A DNA stretch of 38,562 nt from Sphingobacteriaceae bacterium (GTDB taxonomy: Bacteria; Bacteroidota; Bacteroidia; Sphingobacteriales; Sphingobacteriaceae): contig CANHCS010000013.1 in the NCBI GenBank assembly GCA_947459195.1, positions 1-38,562 of the forward strand, written 5' to 3'. The notes beneath the pieces are model-generated. The model saw only the letters and a list, made by a program, of their open reading frames with translations, did not search any database and was not told the DNA's origin. A program made the translations under genes and the position numbers. The stretch's first letter is position 1, and each line of letters begins with the position of its first letter. This document shows positions 7,118 through 38,525 of the stretch, one piece after another.

Positions 7118-8143
7118 ATGTTGAATGAAAACCTGGATCCGAATCCGGAGCATCTGAGTCCCGCTGAACGTGATATTGAAAAAGTATTGCGCCCGCAGGC
7201 TTTTGAAGACTTTACCGGGCAGCACAAGCTGCTGGAGAACCTGCGTATTTTCGTTCAGGCCGCTAAACAGCGTAACGAAGCTTTAGACCACGTATTGCTC
7301 CATGGCCCTCCAGGCTTAGGTAAAACTACCCTCTCGCACATCATTGCCAACGAAATGGGGGTAGGCATCAAGATCACCTCAGGCCCCGTACTGGATAAAC
7401 CCGGAGACCTGGCGGGTTTGCTTACCAATTTGGAAGAAGGCGACATCCTGTTTATTGATGAAATTCATCGTTTGAGTCCTTTGGTAGAAGAATACTTGTA
7501 TTCGGCCATGGAGGATTTCAAAATTGATATCATGCTCGAAACCGGCCCCAATGCCCGTTCGGTACAAATTTCTTTAAACCCCTTTACCCTGGTGGGTGCC
7601 ACTACCCGCTCAGGCTTGCTGACGGCTCCTTTAAGAGCACGTTTCGGTATCAATTCCCGTTTGGAATATTACGACGCCAAATTGCTCACCACTATTGTAT
7701 TGCGCTCGGCATCGATCTTAAAAACTCCCATCAGCGATGAAGGCGCTTTTGAAATTGCCCGCCGTAGCCGCGGCACTCCGCGTATTGCCAATGCACTGCT
7801 TCGCCGTACCCGCGATTTCGCCCAGATCAAAGGCGATGGCAATATTGATGTGGGCATCGCACAGATTGCGCTGCATGCCTTAAACGTTGATGAACACGGG
7901 CTGGATGAAATGGACAACAAGATATTGAGCACCATCATTGATAAGTTTAAAGGCGGACCGGTAGGCTTAAAAACTATTGCCACTGCTGTTGGCGAAGATG
8001 AAGGTACCATTGAAGAGGTGTACGAACCTTTCCTGATTCAGGAAGGCTACCTGATGCGTACTTCCCGCGGTCGCGAATGTACCGAACTGGCCTATCAGCA
8101 TCTCCGTAAAACCAAACCCGGCAGCCACCCTTCTTTGTTTTAA
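7118..8143 (+). CDS. ruvB: Holliday junction branch migration ATPase RuvB
   Basis: A 341-residue hexameric AAA+ motor that with RuvA drives branch migration of Holliday junctions. The N-terminal [12 protein letters not shown] motif precedes Walker A (GPPGLGKTT, residues 63-71) and Walker B (FIDEIHR, Asp114-Glu115). Sensor 1 is [18 protein letters not shown], sensor 2 lies at [15 protein letters not shown], and the C-terminal winged-helix domain ends with [15 protein letters not shown]. Length matches the family. It begins 54 bp from the divergent LamG lipoprotein start and lies 9 bp upstream of queG, so the two are probably co-transcribed. ruvA is not adjacent, as is common in Bacteroidota. 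Confidence 0.97.
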
Positions 8144-8152
8144 GAGCAAATC

Positions 8153-9085
8153 ATGCTCAGGCCAAAGGAAACATACAGCCGATTGATTAAAGATCTTGCC
8201 AAAGAGCAGGGTTTTCTATTCTGTGGCATTGCCCCTGCCGGATTTCTGGAAGCGGAAGCCCCAAAACTCGAAAACTGGTTAAAAGCAGGCCATCATGGGG
8301 AGATGGCTTATATGGAAAATCATTTTGATAAGCGATTGGATCCCCGTTTACTAGTGGATGGCGCCAAATCAGTGATCAGTTTGGGATTGAATTATTATAC
8401 CGAAGCACAGCAGAGCGATCCGGAAGCGCCCAAAATTTCGATGTATGCCTTAGGCGAAGATTACCATTCGGTGATCAAGGCCAAACTGAAGATTTTACTG
8501 GAGCGACTGCGTGAAGTAATTGGCGAGGTCAATGGCCGGGCTTTTGTAGATTCGGCACCGGTACTCGATAAAGCATGGGCACAAAAAGCCGGATTGGGCT
8601 GGATAGGTAAGCATACCAACCTGATCAGCAAACAAAAAGGTTCCTATTTTTTCTTAGCAGAATTGATCGTGGATGTGGAACTGGCTTATGATCTGCCAAT
8701 GCAAACCGATCATTGCGGCTCCTGCACCCGCTGCATCGATGCCTGCCCTACCGAAGCCATTGTGGCACCTTATCTGGTAGATGGCAGCCGCTGCATTTCT
8801 TACCTGACCATAGAATTAAAAAATGAAATCCCTGCTGAATTTCAGGGCAAAATGGACAACTGGATGTACGGATGTGATGTATGCCAACAGGTTTGCCCCT
8901 GGAATCGCTTTTCTATCCCTCATCAAGAAAGCGCATTTAAGCCTAATCCTGACCTACTCGGTATGAACAAAAAAGATTGGGAAGAAATTACGGAAGAAGT
9001 TTTCCAAAAGGTTTTCCCTAAATCGGCAGTTAAACGTACCAAGTTTGCGGGTTTGAAACGGAATATTGGCTTTTTGAATGGATAG
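8153..9085 (+). CDS. queG: Epoxyqueuosine reductase QueG
   Basis: A 310-residue iron-sulfur and cobalamin enzyme that reduces epoxyqueuosine to queuosine in the wobble position of GUN-anticodon tRNAs. It shows the family core [26 protein letters not shown] (Asp133 and Asp139 region). Ferredoxin-type cysteines follow: Cys188, Cys191, Cys194 and Cys198 in [12 protein letters not shown], Cys214, and Cys241, Cys244 and Cys248 in [10 protein letters not shown]. These supply ligands for two 4Fe-4S clusters. The C-terminal HEAT-like extension seen in longer relatives is absent, which is normal for the short form. It follows ruvB by 9 bp. Confidence 0.95.
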
Positions 9086-9131: not shown

Positions 9132-9647
9132 ATGGAGATTAGCATCAGAAAAATAGACCAGGATGACTTGTTAGCCTTACAGCAAATTGGCAAGGAAACT
9201 TTCTTTGAAACTTTTGCACCGAGCAGCAAGCCTGAGAACATGGAGAAATACCTAAAAGAGGCCTTTTCTGAAGAACAACTGAGGGCTGAATTAATGAACC
9301 CTCATTCTGCTTTTTACTTTGCCGAATTAGAGGGAAAAGTAATTGGGTATTTAAAAATTAATACCGGGGCTGCGCAACATGAACTGCAGGATCAAAACAC
9401 AATGGAACTCCAGCGAATTTATGTTTTGGCAGCCTATCATGGCAAAGCAGCAGGCAAAATGTTAATGGATACCGCCATTACTTGTGCCTTGGAACAAGGG
9501 GTAGACTTTATTTGGCTGGGTGTTTGGGAAGAAAACCCAAGGGCTATCCGATTTTACGAAAAGAACGGCTTTATAGTGTTTGGTGAACATCAGTTCCAGT
9601 TTGGTGAAGAACTGGAAATGGATATCATGATGAAGATGGAATTGTAG
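9132..9647 (+). CDS. GNAT family N-acetyltransferase
   Basis: A 171-residue single-domain GNAT protein. It opens with ISIRKIDQDDLLALQQIGKETF and carries the acetyl-CoA binding motif A in the segment ELQRIYVLAAYHGKAAGKMLMD (the pyrophosphate loop is HGKAAGK). Motif B follows as FIWLGVWEENPRAIRFYEKNGF. The N-terminal FETFAPSSKPENMEKYL pattern resembles a subgroup of spermidine/polyamine- or ribosomal-protein-type acetyltransferases, but the acceptor cannot be inferred. It starts 46 bp after queG and may share its transcript. Downstream lies the 21-bp repeat array rather than an immediate terminator. Confidence 0.88.
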   Translation: MEISIRKIDQDDLLALQQIGKETFFETFAPSSKPENMEKYLKEAFSEEQLRAELMNPHSAFYFAELEGKVIGYLKINTGAAQHELQDQNTMELQRIYVLAAYHGKAAGKMLMDTAITCALEQGVDFIWLGVWEENPRAIRFYEKNGFIVFGEHQFQFGEELEMDIMMKMEL

Positions 9648-9676
9648 CAGGTGGGGTCTAAGTCCTGAGTTAGACT

Positions 9677-9949
9677 AGGGATTCTTTACCAATACTTCTG
9701 CGCTATTTATGAACTCTTATGCGCTCTTTATTTATGCAATTGCGCTCTTTAATTGAACATTTAAACTTTCTGAAAGAACAATTGCGCTCTTACATTGAAC
9801 CTCTGCGCTTTTTAAAAATAGGGTTGCGCTCTTTGATGATGTATATGCGCTCATTTAATGTGTGATTGCGCTCTCTAATCTTTACTTTGCGCTATTTAAA
9901 TAAGCTTTTGCGCTCTTTTATCAGGTCTTTGAACTTTCTATGATTCATT
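9677..9949. repeat. Phased 21-bp repeat array, 12-13 units
   Basis: A core of the form nTGCGCTCTTTA followed by about 9 variable bases recurs at an exact 21-bp period. GCGCT occurs at 9700, 9721, 9742, 9784, 9805, 9826, 9847, 9868, 9889 and 9910. Two in-phase variant units read AAACTTTCT (9763) and GAACTTTCT (9931). A weak first unit, GGATTCTTTA, sits in phase at 9679. No insertion or deletion breaks the phase over about 250 bp, although the spacers share no sequence. The array fills the spacer between the GNAT gene and the terminator of the convergent VPS10-like gene. It is not a CRISPR (cores about 11 bp, spacers about 9-10 bp). A period of 21 bp is two turns of B-DNA, which would put every core on the same helix face. 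Function is unknown. Confidence 0.9.
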
Positions 9950-9983
9950 AAAAAAGCCCCGAGGGTATCCTCGGGGCTTTTTT
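9950..9983. terminator. Bidirectional rho-independent terminator
   Basis: GCCCCGAGG and CCTCGGGGC form a perfect 9-bp stem with loop GTAT, extended by six A-T pairs to A/T runs on both sides. It can terminate the minus-strand VPS10-like gene and any plus-strand transcript crossing the repeat array. Confidence 0.88.
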
Positions 9984-9985
9984 GT

Positions 9986-12900
9986 TTAGTTAATGGGTTG
10001 ATAGTCTTTAAAAGGGTTCACCTTGATTTCTTCTGCTTTTTTGCGGAAGGCAGGCCATTCTTTCTCGAAATAAGCATTCACTTTGTCGATGAATTCTTTG
10101 GTGAGCTGCTCGGCCTGTTCAATCAGCTTGATTTCCTGTACACCAGGCTTGCTTGGCTTGTTAAGGATGCTGCCTTGTGCCTCATTGAGCTTTCCGGTTG
10201 CGGTGAGCTGGTAAGGTCGGCCATAGCCTTGTTTATCCAGGCGTTTACCTTGTAATACTTCCTTGATCTTCTTGATGCTGTCTTGCTGAGCTTTGGCTTG
10301 CTTGATCAAGTCTTTGGCTTGAGCATTTTCTAAACCGTTTAAGCCAGCGCTGATACGGGCAGCAATTTCATTGCTTTCGTCGAGGCGATCCATGGCTTCG
10401 GTGAGTTTCTGCACGCTGATGGCAATACGATCGATGTGTTTGCGCTTTTCGGCATAAATTTCTGCTGAGAAAGGAACTCGTGGATCGGCTAAGAAAGCAA
10501 CATTTACAGAATCTTTGAAACTACCGTATTGTACCACCGCTTTGTAGGTACCCGGAAATGCGGTTAACCCACCACGTTCATCAGATTTGTTTTTTGGTTT
10601 TGGACTACCCGGATAACGGATTCCTTTTTCCTCTAAGCCCCACTCAATAAAGTTCAAACCGGTATCTACCTGTGTTTGAGTAAGGGTGCGGATCAATTTA
10701 CCATCTAGGGTATAGATGCGGGTGATCAAACTATCCGTAGCAGTTTTGGTTTTGCTGTCTTTTTTATCAGCAGCTTTAGCAGGCGTTTTTACCAAGAATG
10801 GAATACGAGCCGAACCTGAAGCACGATTAGGGGCTTCGTAAGTGGCATCGGCAGCAAACTCTATTCCGATGGCTTTTAATCTACCTTGTACATCAACTGC
10901 CACTGCTGGTTCAAAAAGCATGTGGTCTTTTATTCCTTCGGCTGCTAATTTCCGCAATGGTTTGATGTCGTCTAAAATCCAGATACCACGACCGAAGGTG
11001 GCAATGGCCAGGTCGGCTTCTCTCTCTTGCAAGGCCAGATCCATGGTAGAAACGGATGGATAATCGTTTTTGAATTGGGTAAAGGTCTTACCTTCATCGA
11101 TACTAATCCAAAGTCCGTTTTCGGTTCCTGCAAATACCAGTTTAGGTTGTACCGGATCTTGCAATACGCAAAGAGCATAGCCTTTTACTTTTTTATCGTC
11201 TACTACCCGCTCCCAGGTTTTACCGAAGTCTTTGGTGCGGTAAATGTAGGGGGAAAAGTCGCCCTGACGGTAATTATTGGCCACTACCCAAGCTTCGGCA
11301 GCATTATAGCGTGAAGCCTGAATTTGCGGAATCCAGCTTTCTTTTGGCAAACCTTTGATGTTTGAGGTGAGGTTGGTCCAGGTTTTACCGCCATCGCGGC
11401 TCAACTGCACATTGCCATCGTCGGTACCTACCCAAAGCACCTGGTTGTTGATTTTGCTGGGGGCAATGGTCAAAATGGTATTGTGGTTTTCGGCAGCGGT
11501 AATGTCAATAGTCAAACCACCGCTTTGTTCCTGCTTTTGCTGCTCAGGGTTATTAAGGGTAAGGTCTGGTGAAATGATATCCCAGCTGATGCCCTTATTG
11601 GTGCTCTTGTGCACAAACTGGCTGCCATAGTAAATGGTATTGTTATTGGTAGGATCTTGTGCAAATGCGGCGTTCCAGTTGAAACGTAAACGGGTTTTCA
11701 AATCTGGGGCAGGTGGACGCAGGCTGTAAGTAAAGCCGCTTTGTTTATCGTAGCGGGCCAGAGCGCCTCCTTGCGACATGGCATAGCCATAACGGCTATC
11801 ATCCGGATCGGGGATTACATCAAATCCATCGCCACCTAAAACTGTTTGCCAGTAGGCATTGCGGATACCGGCATCACGCCAGATGTAAGCAGGTCCGGTC
11901 CAGGAGCCATTGTCTTGCAGACCGCCATATACATTATATGGCATTTCGTTATCTACATTGATGTGATAGAATTGACCTAATGGCAGTGATTCTATATAGG
12001 TCCATTTTTTTCCGCGGTCGCGAGAAATGGCAATACCGCCGTCGTTTCCATCAATGATGAAAGATGGATCTTTAGGATGGATCCACCAGGCATGGTGATC
12101 GGGGTGTACGCCTGAATAAGGAATGATCACCTCAAAAGATTTACCGCCATCTTCGCTCATTGCGATCATCTGGTAAATATTATACAAACGATTTTCGTTC
12201 TGCGGGTCTACCGCGATGTCCTGAAAATAGAAAGGACGGTTATTGGTGAATTGGGGGTCGTTATTCACCATTTCCCAATGGTAGCCACCATCATCAGAAC
12301 GGTACAATGCATTTTTAGATGATTCAATCATGGCATATACCCTGTCTGGTTGGCTGGGTGCAATGGCGATACCGATACGGCCCAGGTCGCCATCTGGGAT
12401 GCCGTTGTTTTTATCGAGTTTGGTCCAGTTTTTCCCGCCATCCAAAGTCATGTAAAAGCCCGAACCGGGACCGCCTGATTTGAAATCGTAAGCGGTACGG
12501 CGCATTTGCCACATATTCACAAATAGCTTATTTGGGTTGGTAGGGTCCATCACCATGTCGCCTACACCTGATGAGGCATTGGTATAGAGTATTTTGGTCC
12601 AGGTTTCGCCGCCGTCGGTGGTTTTGTATACGCCACGTTCGCTGTGTTCGGCAAATGGATTACCCATGGCACCTACATAAATGGTATTGGGGTGCTGGGG
12701 ATCGATCAAAATACGGTGGATGGTGATGGTTTTCTCCAGTCCCATCAATTTCCAGGTTCTTCCGCCATCTAAGCTTTTATAGATACCTTGCCCCAGGTTA
12801 ATGGAATTACGGGGGTTACCCTCACCGGTACCTACCCAAATGATATTGGGATTGTTTTGTTGTACGGCTATGGCACCAATATTAACGGTTGGGTTGGCAT

Positions 12901-13141
12901 CGAAAATGCTTTTCCAGGTGGTACCTCCGTTTTCGGTTTTCCATACACCTCCTGATGCGGCACCGATGTAAAAGATATCGGGATTGGCTTCTACGGGTGC
13001 AATGGCCGTTACGCGTCCGCTCATGCTTCCGGGCCCGATATTTCTTGGTTTCATAGCCTTGAGCAGACTAAAATCGATCTGCTGTGCCCATGCGGCTAAG
13101 GCGATATTGATTAAAAAAACGCTGGTAAGTATTTTTTTCAT
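9986..13141 (-). CDS. Secreted VPS10/sortilin-type BNR-repeat protein
   Basis: A 1051-residue exported protein with a signal peptide at residues 1-19 (ending AAWAQ). Residues of about 30-720 form beta-propellers marked by at least ten BNR/Asp-box repeats (for example TENGGTTW, SLDGGRTW, TTDGGETW, TLDGGKNW, SDDGGYHW, SRDGGKTW, TKDFGKTW). This is the arrangement annotated as VPS10/sortilin-like or WD40/YVTN/BNR-like in Bacteroidota. A later segment (IYTLDGKLIRTL ... GLNFIEWGLEEKG ... FPGTYKAVVQYG) resembles a FlgD-type Ig fold, and the C-terminus (about 910-1040) is charged and helical. No catalytic site of a sialidase can be assigned. It is a stand-alone gene closed by a bidirectional terminator. 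Substrate and role are unknown. Confidence 0.85.
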   Translation of the reverse strand: MKKILTSVFLINIALAAWAQQIDFSLLKAMKPRNIGPGSMSGRVTAIAPVEANPDIFYIGAASGGVWKTENGGTTWKSIFDANPTVNIGAIAVQQNNPNIIWVGTGEGNPRNSINLGQGIYKSLDGGRTWKLMGLEKTITIHRILIDPQHPNTIYVGAMGNPFAEHSERGVYKTTDGGETWTKILYTNASSGVGDMVMDPTNPNKLFVNMWQMRRTAYDFKSGGPGSGFYMTLDGGKNWTKLDKNNGIPDGDLGRIGIAIAPSQPDRVYAMIESSKNALYRSDDGGYHWEMVNNDPQFTNNRPFYFQDIAVDPQNENRLYNIYQMIAMSEDGGKSFEVIIPYSGVHPDHHAWWIHPKDPSFIIDGNDGGIAISRDRGKKWTYIESLPLGQFYHINVDNEMPYNVYGGLQDNGSWTGPAYIWRDAGIRNAYWQTVLGGDGFDVIPDPDDSRYGYAMSQGGALARYDKQSGFTYSLRPPAPDLKTRLRFNWNAAFAQDPTNNNTIYYGSQFVHKSTNKGISWDIISPDLTLNNPEQQKQEQSGGLTIDITAAENHNTILTIAPSKINNQVLWVGTDDGNVQLSRDGGKTWTNLTSNIKGLPKESWIPQIQASRYNAAEAWVVANNYRQGDFSPYIYRTKDFGKTWERVVDDKKVKGYALCVLQDPVQPKLVFAGTENGLWISIDEGKTFTQFKNDYPSVSTMDLALQEREADLAIATFGRGIWILDDIKPLRKLAAEGIKDHMLFEPAVAVDVQGRLKAIGIEFAADATYEAPNRASGSARIPFLVKTPAKAADKKDSKTKTATDSLITRIYTLDGKLIRTLTQTQVDTGLNFIEWGLEEKGIRYPGSPKPKNKSDERGGLTAFPGTYKAVVQYGSFKDSVNVAFLADPRVPFSAEIYAEKRKHIDRIAISVQKLTEAMDRLDESNEIAARISAGLNGLENAQAKDLIKQAKAQQDSIKKIKEVLQGKRLDKQGYGRPYQLTATGKLNEAQGSILNKPSKPGVQEIKLIEQAEQLTKEFIDKVNAYFEKEWPAFRKKAEEIKVNPFKDYQPIN

Positions 13142-19576: not shown

Positions 19577-21616
19577 ATGTCAAAAAAAGAATTCAAACCC
19601 TATGTATCGGCCGATAGTCAGGTAGCCGAGTTTACCGTAAAATCTATCCTTTTGGGCGCCTTATTCGGCGTTATTTTCGGAGCGGCTACCGTTTATTTGG
19701 CCTTAAAAGCGGGCTTAACCGTATCGGCCTCCATTCCTATCGCTGTTTTGGCCATATCCATTGGTCGTAAATTTTTCAAGACCACCATTCTGGAGAACAA
19801 TATCATCCAGACCACCGGTTCTGCAGGCGAATCTATTGCTGCAGGGGTGGTATTTACCCTCCCGGGATTCTTATTCCTATCGGCAGGCAGCCAGGGCGAA
19901 AGTTTCTTTTCTTACTGGCCGATCTTCTTCCTGGCCGCATTGGGTGGCATATTGGGAACGTTGATGATGGTACCCCTGCGTAAATCGCTGATTGTGGATG
20001 AGCACGACAACCTGCCTTATCCAGAAGGTACCGCTTGTGCCTCGGTGCTGATTGCCGGTGAAAAAGGCGGTGATTTTGCGAAAACGGCTTATCAGGGATT
20101 GGGCTTTGCCTTCTTGTATGCCATCCTGCAAAAGGTTTTCCATGTGATCGCTGAAACGCCTAAATGGGCGACAGAGCAAAGCAATAAGTTCTTCCCTTCG
20201 GCTACAGTTAATGGAGAAATTACCCCTGAATATATGGGGGTTGGTTATATCATCGGTCCGAAAATTGCCGGCGTATTGGTAGCTGGCGGTGTTTTGGCCT
20301 GGTTGGGCTTGATTCCCTTACTGGCCTCCATTGTTCCAGGCGATACAATTGCTTTACAGCTGGTTAAGCTCGGTTATCTGAAAGATCTTTTAACTCCGGG
20401 AGGACCTGGTGGCTGGGATCCGGCAACACATAGTTTTGCCGATACGGCATCGGCAGTGTACCGTGCTTATGTGCGACAAATTGGTGCGGGTGCGGTGGCT
20501 GCCGGTGGTTTCATTACGCTGATCAAAACCATCCCGACCATTATTTCTTCGTTTAAATCGAGCCTGGCCTCCATCAGAAATAAGGATGGTAAAACGGTAG
20601 AAGTGAAACGTACCGATCGCGACCTTTCCTTTACGACTGTTTTATGGGGAAGTTTAGCGCTCATCGTTCTGATGGCTGTATTGCCACAAATTCCGGGTGA
20701 TTCTTTGATCAATAAATTACTGATCGGTGTACTGGTGGTGATCTTTGGTTTCTTCTTCGTGACGGTTTCGAGCCGTATTGTGGGATTAATTGGTTCTTCT
20801 TCCAACCCCATTTCCGGAATGACCATTGCTACCCTGATGGGTACTTGTTTGGTGTTCATCAGCGTGGGCTGGACCGGAAAGTTGTTTGAACCGATGGCTT
20901 TGGTGGTGGGCAGTATGATCTGTATTGCGGCAGCCAATGCGGGTGCCACTTCCCAAGATCTGAAAACGGGATATATCGTAGGTGCCACACCAAAGTACCA
21001 ACAATTGGCCTTGTTTGTAGGTGCGGTAGTTTCTGCGGTGGTAATTGGCCTAACCTTGTCGATATTGGATCGTCCTACACCGGAAATGGCCGCTCAGGGA
21101 ATACAGCATGCCATTGGCACCGATTTGTATCCCGCCCCTCAGGGCACCTTGATGGCTACCTTAATTAAAGGTTTGTTATCGTTCAACCTCGACTGGCAAT
21201 TTGTGCTGGTGGGCGTATTTTTGGCCATTACCATGGAATTGTGCGGTGTCAAATCGCTTTCTTTTGCGGTGGGTGCATATTTACCGCTCTCTACTACCCT
21301 GCCAATTTTTGCGGGTGGTGCCATTAAAGGCCTGGTAGACTGGAAAACAAAGGATGTAAAAAAATCTGCTGAAGAGGAAGAATTGGGCAAAGGCAGTTTA
21401 TTTGCCACGGGTTTGGTGGCTGGGGGTGCATTAATGGGTGTGATCTATGCTTTTTTGATGGCTTTCCAATCTACGGCCATCCCGGTAGGTAATTTAAACA
21501 TGGAACCCGCTATTGAACATGCACTGGGATCAGCAGGGTATCAATTACTCGGATTCGGATTTTTTGTATTAATGGGCTATATCCTCTATCGGATTGCTGT
21601 TTCGAAAGAGAAATAA
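19577..21616 (+). CDS. OPT family oligopeptide transporter
   Basis: A 679-residue integral membrane protein of the oligopeptide transporter (OPT) superfamily, with roughly 15-16 hydrophobic segments. Typical prokaryotic OPT features are EFTVKSILLGALFGVIFGAATVYLALK-type sequence in helix 1, TTGSAGESIAAGVVFTLPGF, and VPLRKSLIVDEHDNLPYPEGTACASVL with the NLPYPEG signature. Later come GVGYIIGPKIAGVL, SSSNPISGMTIATLMGT and QDLKTGYIVGATPKYQQLA. Bacterial members import peptides or metal-chelate complexes; the substrate cannot be told from sequence. It is monocistronic and shares a bidirectional terminator with the convergent DUF502 gene. Confidence 0.93.
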   Translation: MSKKEFKPYVSADSQVAEFTVKSILLGALFGVIFGAATVYLALKAGLTVSASIPIAVLAISIGRKFFKTTILENNIIQTTGSAGESIAAGVVFTLPGFLFLSAGSQGESFFSYWPIFFLAALGGILGTLMMVPLRKSLIVDEHDNLPYPEGTACASVLIAGEKGGDFAKTAYQGLGFAFLYAILQKVFHVIAETPKWATEQSNKFFPSATVNGEITPEYMGVGYIIGPKIAGVLVAGGVLAWLGLIPLLASIVPGDTIALQLVKLGYLKDLLTPGGPGGWDPATHSFADTASAVYRAYVRQIGAGAVAAGGFITLIKTIPTIISSFKSSLASIRNKDGKTVEVKRTDRDLSFTTVLWGSLALIVLMAVLPQIPGDSLINKLLIGVLVVIFGFFFVTVSSRIVGLIGSSSNPISGMTIATLMGTCLVFISVGWTGKLFEPMALVVGSMICIAAANAGATSQDLKTGYIVGATPKYQQLALFVGAVVSAVVIGLTLSILDRPTPEMAAQGIQHAIGTDLYPAPQGTLMATLIKGLLSFNLDWQFVLVGVFLAITMELCGVKSLSFAVGAYLPLSTTLPIFAGGAIKGLVDWKTKDVKKSAEEEELGKGSLFATGLVAGGALMGVIYAFLMAFQSTAIPVGNLNMEPAIEHALGSAGYQLLGFGFFVLMGYILYRIAVSKEK

Positions 21617-25434: not shown

Positions 25435-25449
25435 AAAGGTCAATCACCT

Positions 25450-25530
25450 GCCTGGGTGGTGGAACTGGTAGACACGTACCGATAAATCGGGATTCGCCTA
25501 CTGCGAGTGCGGACTCGATAAAAACCTATT
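25450..25530 (+). pseudogene. Decayed tRNA-Leu copy 1
   Basis: Identical to the intact tRNA-Leu from GCCTGGG through the D-arm (GGTGGTGGAACTGGTAGACACG). It keeps the variable-arm stem (TTCGCC...GCGAGTGCGG), but its anticodon arm is replaced by TACCG-ATAAAT-CGGGA with a mismatch and a 6-base loop. The T-stem is lost (GCGGA against AAAAC), as is the 3' acceptor strand. It cannot fold as a tRNA. It starts 91 bp before copy 2. Confidence 0.85.
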
Positions 25531-25540
25531 TTAATCACCT

Positions 25541-25621
25541 GCCTGGGTGGTGGAACTGGTAGACACGTCCCGATAAATCGGGATTCGCCTACTGCGAGTG
25601 CGGACTCGATAAAAACCTAAT
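25541..25621 (+). pseudogene. Decayed tRNA-Leu copy 2
   Basis: Nearly identical to copy 1 and exactly 91 bp downstream. The anticodon arm is TCCCG-ATAAAT-CGGGA with a perfect 5-bp stem but a 6-base loop, so no normal anticodon exists. T-stem and 3' acceptor strand are degenerate in the same way as copy 1, so the decay happened before the duplication. Confidence 0.85.
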
Positions 25622-25631
25622 TTAATCACCT

Positions 25632-25717
25632 GCCTGGGTGGTGGAACTGGTAGACACGCAGGACTTAAAATCCTGTTCGCCTTAAAGCGAGTGCGGGTTC
25701 GATTCCCGCCCCAGGTA
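25632..25717 (+). tRNA. tRNA-Leu (anticodon UAA)
   Basis: An 86-nt class II tRNA: acceptor GCCTGGG/CCCAGGT (position 1-72 is G-U), D-arm GTGGTGGAACTGGTAGACAC, anticodon stem CAGGA/TCCTG with loop CTTAAAA (anticodon TAA), and long variable arm TCGCCTTAAAGCGA. The T-arm is GCGGGTTCGATTCCCGC and the discriminator is A. CCA is not encoded. It is the third and only intact member of a 91-bp-period tandem. Confidence 0.95.
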
Positions 25718-25718
25718 C

Positions 25719-38078: not shown

Positions 38079-38525
38079 TTATTTTTTTGCAGCCGGCTTC
38101 TTAGCTGGTGCTTTTTTCTCGGCAGCAGCCTTAGGTGCAGCAGCTTTCTTAGGTGCAGCGGCCTTTTTTGCAGGTGCTTCCGCAACCGGAGCAGCTTCAA
38201 CAGCTACTTCAGCAACAACTGGCTCTGCCTTTTTAGGTGCAGCGGCTTTTTTAGAAGCAGCTACTTTAGCTTCTGTAGGCAATACCGATACGTATGATTT
38301 GTTGTTTGCTTTCTTACGGAAAACAACGGTACCATCAATTAATGCAAACAAAGTATGGTCTTTACCCAAACCTACGTTTTTATCTGGATGGTGCTGGGTA
38401 CCACGCTGACGTACAATGATGTTTCCGGCAATCGCTTCCTGACCACCGAAAATTTTGATACCTAAACGTTTACTATGCGATTCGCGACCGTTCTTGGAAC
38501 TACCGGCCCCTTTCTTATGTGCCAT
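38079..38525 (-). CDS. rpmA: 50S ribosomal protein L27 with a long Ala/Lys/Pro tail
   Basis: A 148-residue L27. Residues 1-84 are a standard L27: [20 protein letters not shown] with the flexible basic N-terminal arm that reaches the peptidyl transferase centre, [37 protein letters not shown] and VVFRKK. Residues of about 86-148 are a low-complexity extension of KKAAAPKKA, an acidic/Val insert ([16 protein letters not shown]) and [11 protein letters not shown] ending PAAKK. The tail resembles histone H1/Hc1-like tails and is not part of the usual 85-90 residue protein. No N-terminal processed leader of the Firmicutes type is present. rplU would be expected upstream, beyond the window. Confidence 0.95.

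Follow-up and report, generated by a model that had tools for sequence, protein, structure and literature searches.

Several families of short, regularly spaced direct repeats have been described in bacterial genomes, and four of them bear on the element reported here. At ori2 of Vibrio cholerae, the RctB 12-mers are 12-bp sites arranged head to tail with 10-11 bp between them, which results in a period of 22-23 bp (PMC6090056). In Porphyromonas gingivalis, the BrickBuilt elements consist of near-uniform units of 23 nt with small indels, and are accompanied by a leader, a tail and IS5-type terminal inverted repeats (PMC4596501). The TAACTGA heptamers, present also in some Bacteroidetes, are contiguous 7-bp intergenic direct repeats, located mostly just upstream of start codons (PMC4679880). 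Finally, the REP/BIME-2 repeats are palindromic intergenic sequences, often found near convergent gene ends.

In this work, we characterized an intergenic array in a stretch of 38,562 nucleotides (hereafter, the window) from a draft genome of Sphingobacteriaceae composed of 82 contigs (G000), and compared it with sister genomes of the genus (G001 to G005). The array and its surroundings are organized as follows:

7118-9085, forward strand: ruvB and queG, the upstream neighbours of the GNAT gene
9132-9647, forward strand: GNAT acetyltransferase gene, upstream of the array
9656-9675, forward strand: short inverted repeat (GTCTAA...TTAGAC) lying 3' of the GNAT stop codon and 5' of the array, read from the sequence
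9677-9697, forward strand: possible decayed first unit (AGGGATTCTTTACCAATACTT), in phase, with a TTCTTTA-like remnant only
9698-9949, forward strand: array of 12 direct units, core TTGCGCTCTTTA
9949-9984, forward strand: intrinsic terminator-like hairpin directly 3' of the last unit, with an A-run and a T-run
9986-13141, reverse strand: gene for a Sortilin/VPS10-BNR repeat protein, in convergent orientation to the GNAT gene

The reality of the array is confirmed: each of its 12 units spans exactly 21 bp with zero phase slips, in agreement with a preliminary description that had counted 12-13 phased units at 9677-9949 and had set the start one unit too early. TGCGCT is found in 10 of the 12 units, with diverged units at 9761 (TTAAACTTTCTG) and 9929 (TTGAACTTTCTA); written with its flanks, the core reads (Y)TGCGCTNTTT(A), and about 10-11 bases per unit are near random. 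Mean identity reaches 0.79 at columns 2-11 and 0.34 at columns 13-21, the latter close to the 0.30 expected from composition only; the spacers, which the preliminary description had called unrelated, are near random. A position-weight scan of positions 9300-10300 recovered the units in phase 0 alone, plus two weak off-phase matches. Over the whole window, the longest fixed-period run of TGCRC comprised 7 occurrences at period 21, whereas the other periods from 15 to 30 gave runs of at most 2, which excludes chance as the origin of the array. Tandem Repeats Finder reported just 2.7 copies, an undercount due to the divergence of the spacers. The array fills the gap from the GNAT stop codon to the hairpin, which adjoins the stop codon of the VPS10/BNR gene and, judging from its A-run and T-run, possibly acts as a bidirectional terminator.

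The array resembles RctB iterons in having a core of about 12 bp followed by about 9 bp, in direct orientation and in helical register, as is characteristic of iterons, whose repeats measure about 12-22 bp. However, unlike RctB iterons, the arrays were seen without a neighbouring origin or initiator, their core carries no GATC, and several of them occur per chromosome at unrelated loci, with about 10-22 direct sites each instead of 6, and with locus-specific cores. No replication initiator gene is present beside the window array, whose neighbours are GNAT, VPS10-BNR, ruvB and queG, and, at the level of ORF prediction, none of the ORFs beside the other arrays was recognized as an initiator. As neither an initiator nor a partition gene was recognized beside the arrays, membership in the iteron family is not claimed; the parR/parM and tubR/tubZ genes of plasmid-type centromeres (parC/tubC) are also absent beside the window array.

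Likewise, BrickBuilt belongs to a member of Bacteroidota, is exclusively intergenic, and consists of head-to-tail units of nearly two helical turns in which one half is better conserved than the other (PMC4596501), all of which is shared by the arrays studied here. Unlike BrickBuilt (23 nt, consensus AGAYCATARTATCCTCTCRTRTG), the window unit measures 21 bp, is built of TTGCGCTCTTTA plus a spacer, is unrelated in sequence and keeps an exact phase. In the flanks of the window array, of an array on contig C8 of G000 and of the G003 arrays, inspected by eye, no leader, tail or terminal inverted repeats were noticed, just the GTCTAA/TTAGAC pair at 9656-9675. The arrays share with REP/BIME-2 their repeated and intergenic nature and, often, a place near convergent gene ends; in contrast to the palindromic REPs, their units are direct repeats without hairpins, defined by their period. 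The TAACTGA heptamers are also intergenic direct repeats, but lack variable spacers. A CRISPR array, already discarded by the preliminary description for its much longer repeats, was rejected as well: CRISPR repeats measure about 23-55 bp and alternate with unique spacers of comparable size, versus a 12-bp core and a 9-bp spacer here, and no cas gene lies among the neighbours.

Further arrays were found both in this genome and in its relatives, where the preliminary description had proposed to look for them and had regarded their absence as evidence against its reading. Pattern searches recovered a second G000 array with a core as in the window (C8:3447-3698) and a third with a different core (C36:about 11984-12298). 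To avoid favouring a preset core and a 21-bp period, a sequence-blind scan for any period from 7 to 80 was carried out on 827 kb of G000 (46%). All five intergenic arrays in the scanned sequence showed a period of 21, 42 or 63; the window, C8 and C36 had been sampled as already known from the 21-bp pattern searches, so the unbiased part of this count is two of two new arrays (C3:about 20302-20637 and C7:23311-23667), both with a core different from that of the window. A universal TGCRC core was therefore rejected as pattern-biased, since the arrays found blindly, at loci D and E, carry another core. The cores of the other arrays are unrelated and have just the 21-bp period in common, a result not foreseen by the earlier reader. 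The sole other match of the blind scan, with period 18 at window positions 38083-38268, looks coding, coding calls being rough as they rest on ORFs. Apart from these arrays, a 91-bp unit with tRNA-Leu-like sequence is repeated at window positions 25442-25718 (2.4 copies, 98% identity), where ARAGORN detected a single tRNA-Leu (25632-25718); this is a recent tandem duplication in a tRNA-Leu gene region.

Regarding the sister species, whose contigs were picked because of their 21-bp matches, pattern matches of this period were obtained in 6/6 genomes of the genus, although the single-match cases (G002 and part of G004) may be due to chance. At four G000 loci (A, B, D and E), 21-bp arrays with drifted sequence occupy orthologous positions. 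The loci are distributed as follows:

Locus A (GNAT/VPS10, the window array): arrays in G000, G005 and G003
Locus B: arrays in G000 and G003
Locus C (next to a FeoB-like gene): arrays in G005 and G001
Locus D (preceding a 122-aa gene that contains helix-turn-helix-like sequence): arrays in G000 and G005
Locus E: arrays in G000, G005 and G003, none in G001 and G004
Locus rfbC: array in G000 only, none at this position in the four other genomes with rfbC

At locus A, the order of ruvB, queG and GNAT is conserved beside the orthologous arrays, the 3' end of the VPS10/BNR gene adjoins the arrays of G005 and G003 too, and the G003 array is likewise followed by a terminator-like hairpin. The genes flanking loci A, C, E and rfbC are convergent, and those flanking loci B and D are not; overall, the contexts include convergent 3' ends, co-directional gene pairs and, once, divergent genes, and because they differ no common regulatory logic is visible. 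In G001, a hairpin-rich element (GGCAGAACGATGCTTCTGCCC...GGCCCGCCGTTCTGCCGGGCC) is common to L148 (about 1354-1437), L169 (about 1340-1420) and L177 (about 1370-1440); it precedes two 21-bp arrays and recurs on a third contig, and may be a dispersed element associated with the arrays of this species. Separately, one G004 array (L155, G004:C1:175322-175594) contains two unit families, CGCCATGGTGAGGTGCTACTG and TTGCATTGCTTCGGATGGATG, in one 21-bp phase.

The phase is kept while the sequence drifts. In G000 and G003, the 52 diverged units of loci A and B display 0 slips and fit a common column profile, (Y)TGCRCTNTTT(A), with column 8 free and columns 13-21 near random; the single slip known lies at the edge of G005 locus A, whose first units are out of phase. 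The full indel test was carried out at locus E only, as one-to-one pairing of units has been lost at A, B and D. There, G000 and G005 are homologous unit by unit (score 68, against a maximum of 40 in 200 shuffles); 17 units form pairs, with an identity of 63%, and G000 has an additional complete unit of 21 bp. At base level, the alignment holds 118 substitutions (put overall at about 120-130) and one 21-bp gap with the net phase unchanged; three further gaps, of 1, 1 and 2 bp, compensate one another. As controls, 72 orthologous intergenic regions elsewhere in these two genomes contained 94 gaps for 1,088 substitutions, a rate at which about 10 indels would be expected at locus E; the probability of observing none is about 4e-5, and rises to 0.009 should the three short gaps be genuine and not misalignments. 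This indel deficit is the main evidence for constrained spacing, and on the strength of these alignments a constraint on array phase can be regarded as well supported, since the controls predict about 10 indels at this locus. The proposal of the preliminary description that spacing itself is constrained is supported by the drifted orthologous arrays with intact phase as well as by the deficit relative to the 72 controls.

The main rival to a functional reading is neutral minisatellite turnover, in which the arrays would be selfish or functionless products of mutational 21-bp tandem duplication, their phase being kept by in-register unequal exchange; we consider it rather unlikely. The uniform array at the rfbC locus (match 0.9), as expected of a young array, is exclusive to G000, the 63-bp repeats of three units at G005 locus A show continuing in-register amplification, and P. 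gingivalis offers the precedent of a 23-nt intergenic minisatellite inside a MITE (PMC4596501). Nevertheless, neutral drift should blur core and spacer equally, whereas identity across the arrays is 0.63-0.79 in core columns versus 0.31-0.35 in spacers, a contrast that is strong for unit family I only; old arrays have kept about 10 core columns, with the remaining columns near random. Furthermore, the units of locus E correspond one to one between species and so have not been homogenized, and no net phase-changing indel has been fixed. Neutral turnover explains how arrays are born and amplified in register, yet leaves both the core/spacer contrast and the indel deficit unaccounted for.

Unit families were delimited by comparison of column profiles, at all shifts and on both strands. 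Loci A and B formed one cluster (G000, G003 and G005) and loci D and E another (same species), such that unit families recur at unrelated loci; in addition, the profile of set C resembles one G004 array, and two G001 arrays are near-identical. The cores of A and B are more alike within a genome (0.81 and 0.88) than are the orthologues of G000 and G003 (0.72 and 0.76), the pattern that a shared factor or gene conversion would produce by maintaining their likeness; loci D and E showed no such within-genome excess over orthologues.

A function at the RNA level, with the array as a modular 3' UTR or a small RNA whose units bind an RNA-binding protein or an sRNA, appears improbable. The position of the window array, 3' of the GNAT stop codon and 5' of an intrinsic terminator, by which it may be the 3' UTR of a ruvB-queG-GNAT transcript, is in its favour, as is the same succession of stop codon, array and terminator at loci E and rfbC. 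On the other hand, the window array has no stable fold (z -0.05 and -1.6), and Rfam gave no match above threshold, just sub-threshold ones of terminator type; consequently, the structured regulatory RNA contemplated by the preliminary description was not supported, and its reading holds in part, for the spacing constraint. The other arrays lack a consistent fold signal, with z -3.3 and -2.5 for the strands of G003 locus A under a crude shuffle; besides, at loci B and D the arrays are situated either between co-directional genes, their core being on the opposite strand, or in front of a gene, and single-stranded RNA sites need no spacing of +/-0 bp.

The differing cores under one period would be accounted for if the arrays were bend-phased DNA of loose sequence, serving a nucleoid protein or a wrapping enzyme, for instance gyrase, and absorbing supercoils between convergent genes, which is the context of loci A, C, E and rfbC. 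For E. coli gyrase, which cleaves BIME-2 repeats, the motif is degenerate and its GC flanks show a 10.75-bp periodicity (PMC6379681). A similar GC periodicity of 10.5 bp was striking in the raw spectra of the arrays, but vanished against permuted 21-bp units (combined P 0.27) and was rejected as a signal; predicted curvature was ordinary, with no excess, and loci B and D are not convergent, so we regard this possibility as quite improbable, slightly more so than an RNA function. Finally, since 21 bp equal seven codons, the arrays could be remnants of genes for proteins with seven-residue repeats, and some of them are open in one frame (e.g., those of locus A in G005 and G003). This is highly improbable: the window array contains stops in 6/6 frames, the stop counts of all arrays equal the column-shuffled expectation, and the 22-bp arrays with a similar core elsewhere in the phylum cannot code for heptads.

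Beyond the genus, arrays with a TGCRC core at 21 and 22 bp occur sporadically in other Bacteroidota. A phylum-wide pattern search at 21 bp retrieved 27 of 395 genomes, many of the matches looking coding or like 7-bp microsatellites, and at 22 bp it retrieved 4 genomes, at least three with real arrays. Intergenic-looking 22-bp arrays with TTGCAC-type units were observed in G122 (L297 and L291), G438 (L293) and G396 (L294); the two arrays of G122 differ in unit sequence and both have 22 bp, hinting at lineage-specific periods. In a database-wide scan, most 21-bp TGCGCT matches outside Bacteroidota were coding and were set aside. At the family level, the VPS10 gene sought for synteny was not found in the sampled genomes outside the genus, and a control of 330 kb, a small sample including three very short contigs, contained no intergenic array. 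No description of such 21-bp arrays was found in the literature searched, from which subscription journals were mostly absent.

Two turns of B-DNA comprise 21 bp. A conserved core, a near-random spacer and an exact two-turn period point to an iteron-like architecture of direct sites, and the best explanation of the arrays, to which we give somewhat less than an even chance, is that they are helically phased, iteron-like sites for a candidate DNA-binding factor. The window array would then be one of a family of intergenic elements of the genus, with direct sites placed every 21 bp on one face of the helix. A trans-acting protein may occupy the cores side by side, cooperating along that face, such that base changes in the spacer would be tolerated and indels selected against; this combination of one-face binding and purifying selection on indels is the most economical mechanism, and one-face protein binding, as proposed by the preliminary description, is compatible with all results. 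Arrays were probably born as uniform 21-bp tandem repeats, like that of the rfbC locus, whose spacers would subsequently drift while core and phase stay. Candidate roles of the resulting nucleoprotein include local topology or insulation, titration of the factor, and anchoring. Against a single binder, the cores differ between families, so one sequence-specific protein could not serve them all, unless its specificity is loose or paralogues exist. More tentatively, and with doubt prevailing, the arrays may represent a genus-wide class of elements that conserves helical spacing and not sequence, each locus with its own core family, every array with a 21-bp period and a dedicated factor assembling on one face, and other Bacteroidota may operate the same system at 22 bp.

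Intergenic minisatellites of bacteria are usually dismissed as products of slippage. In these arrays, the spacing is apparently retained between species despite rapid sequence change, and such a pattern is difficult to account for unless something reads the helical phase. A simple route to more such arrays is to look for a constant period rather than a constant sequence, and, if true, the reading proposed here points to an undescribed DNA-binding or chromosome-organizing system in Bacteroidota.
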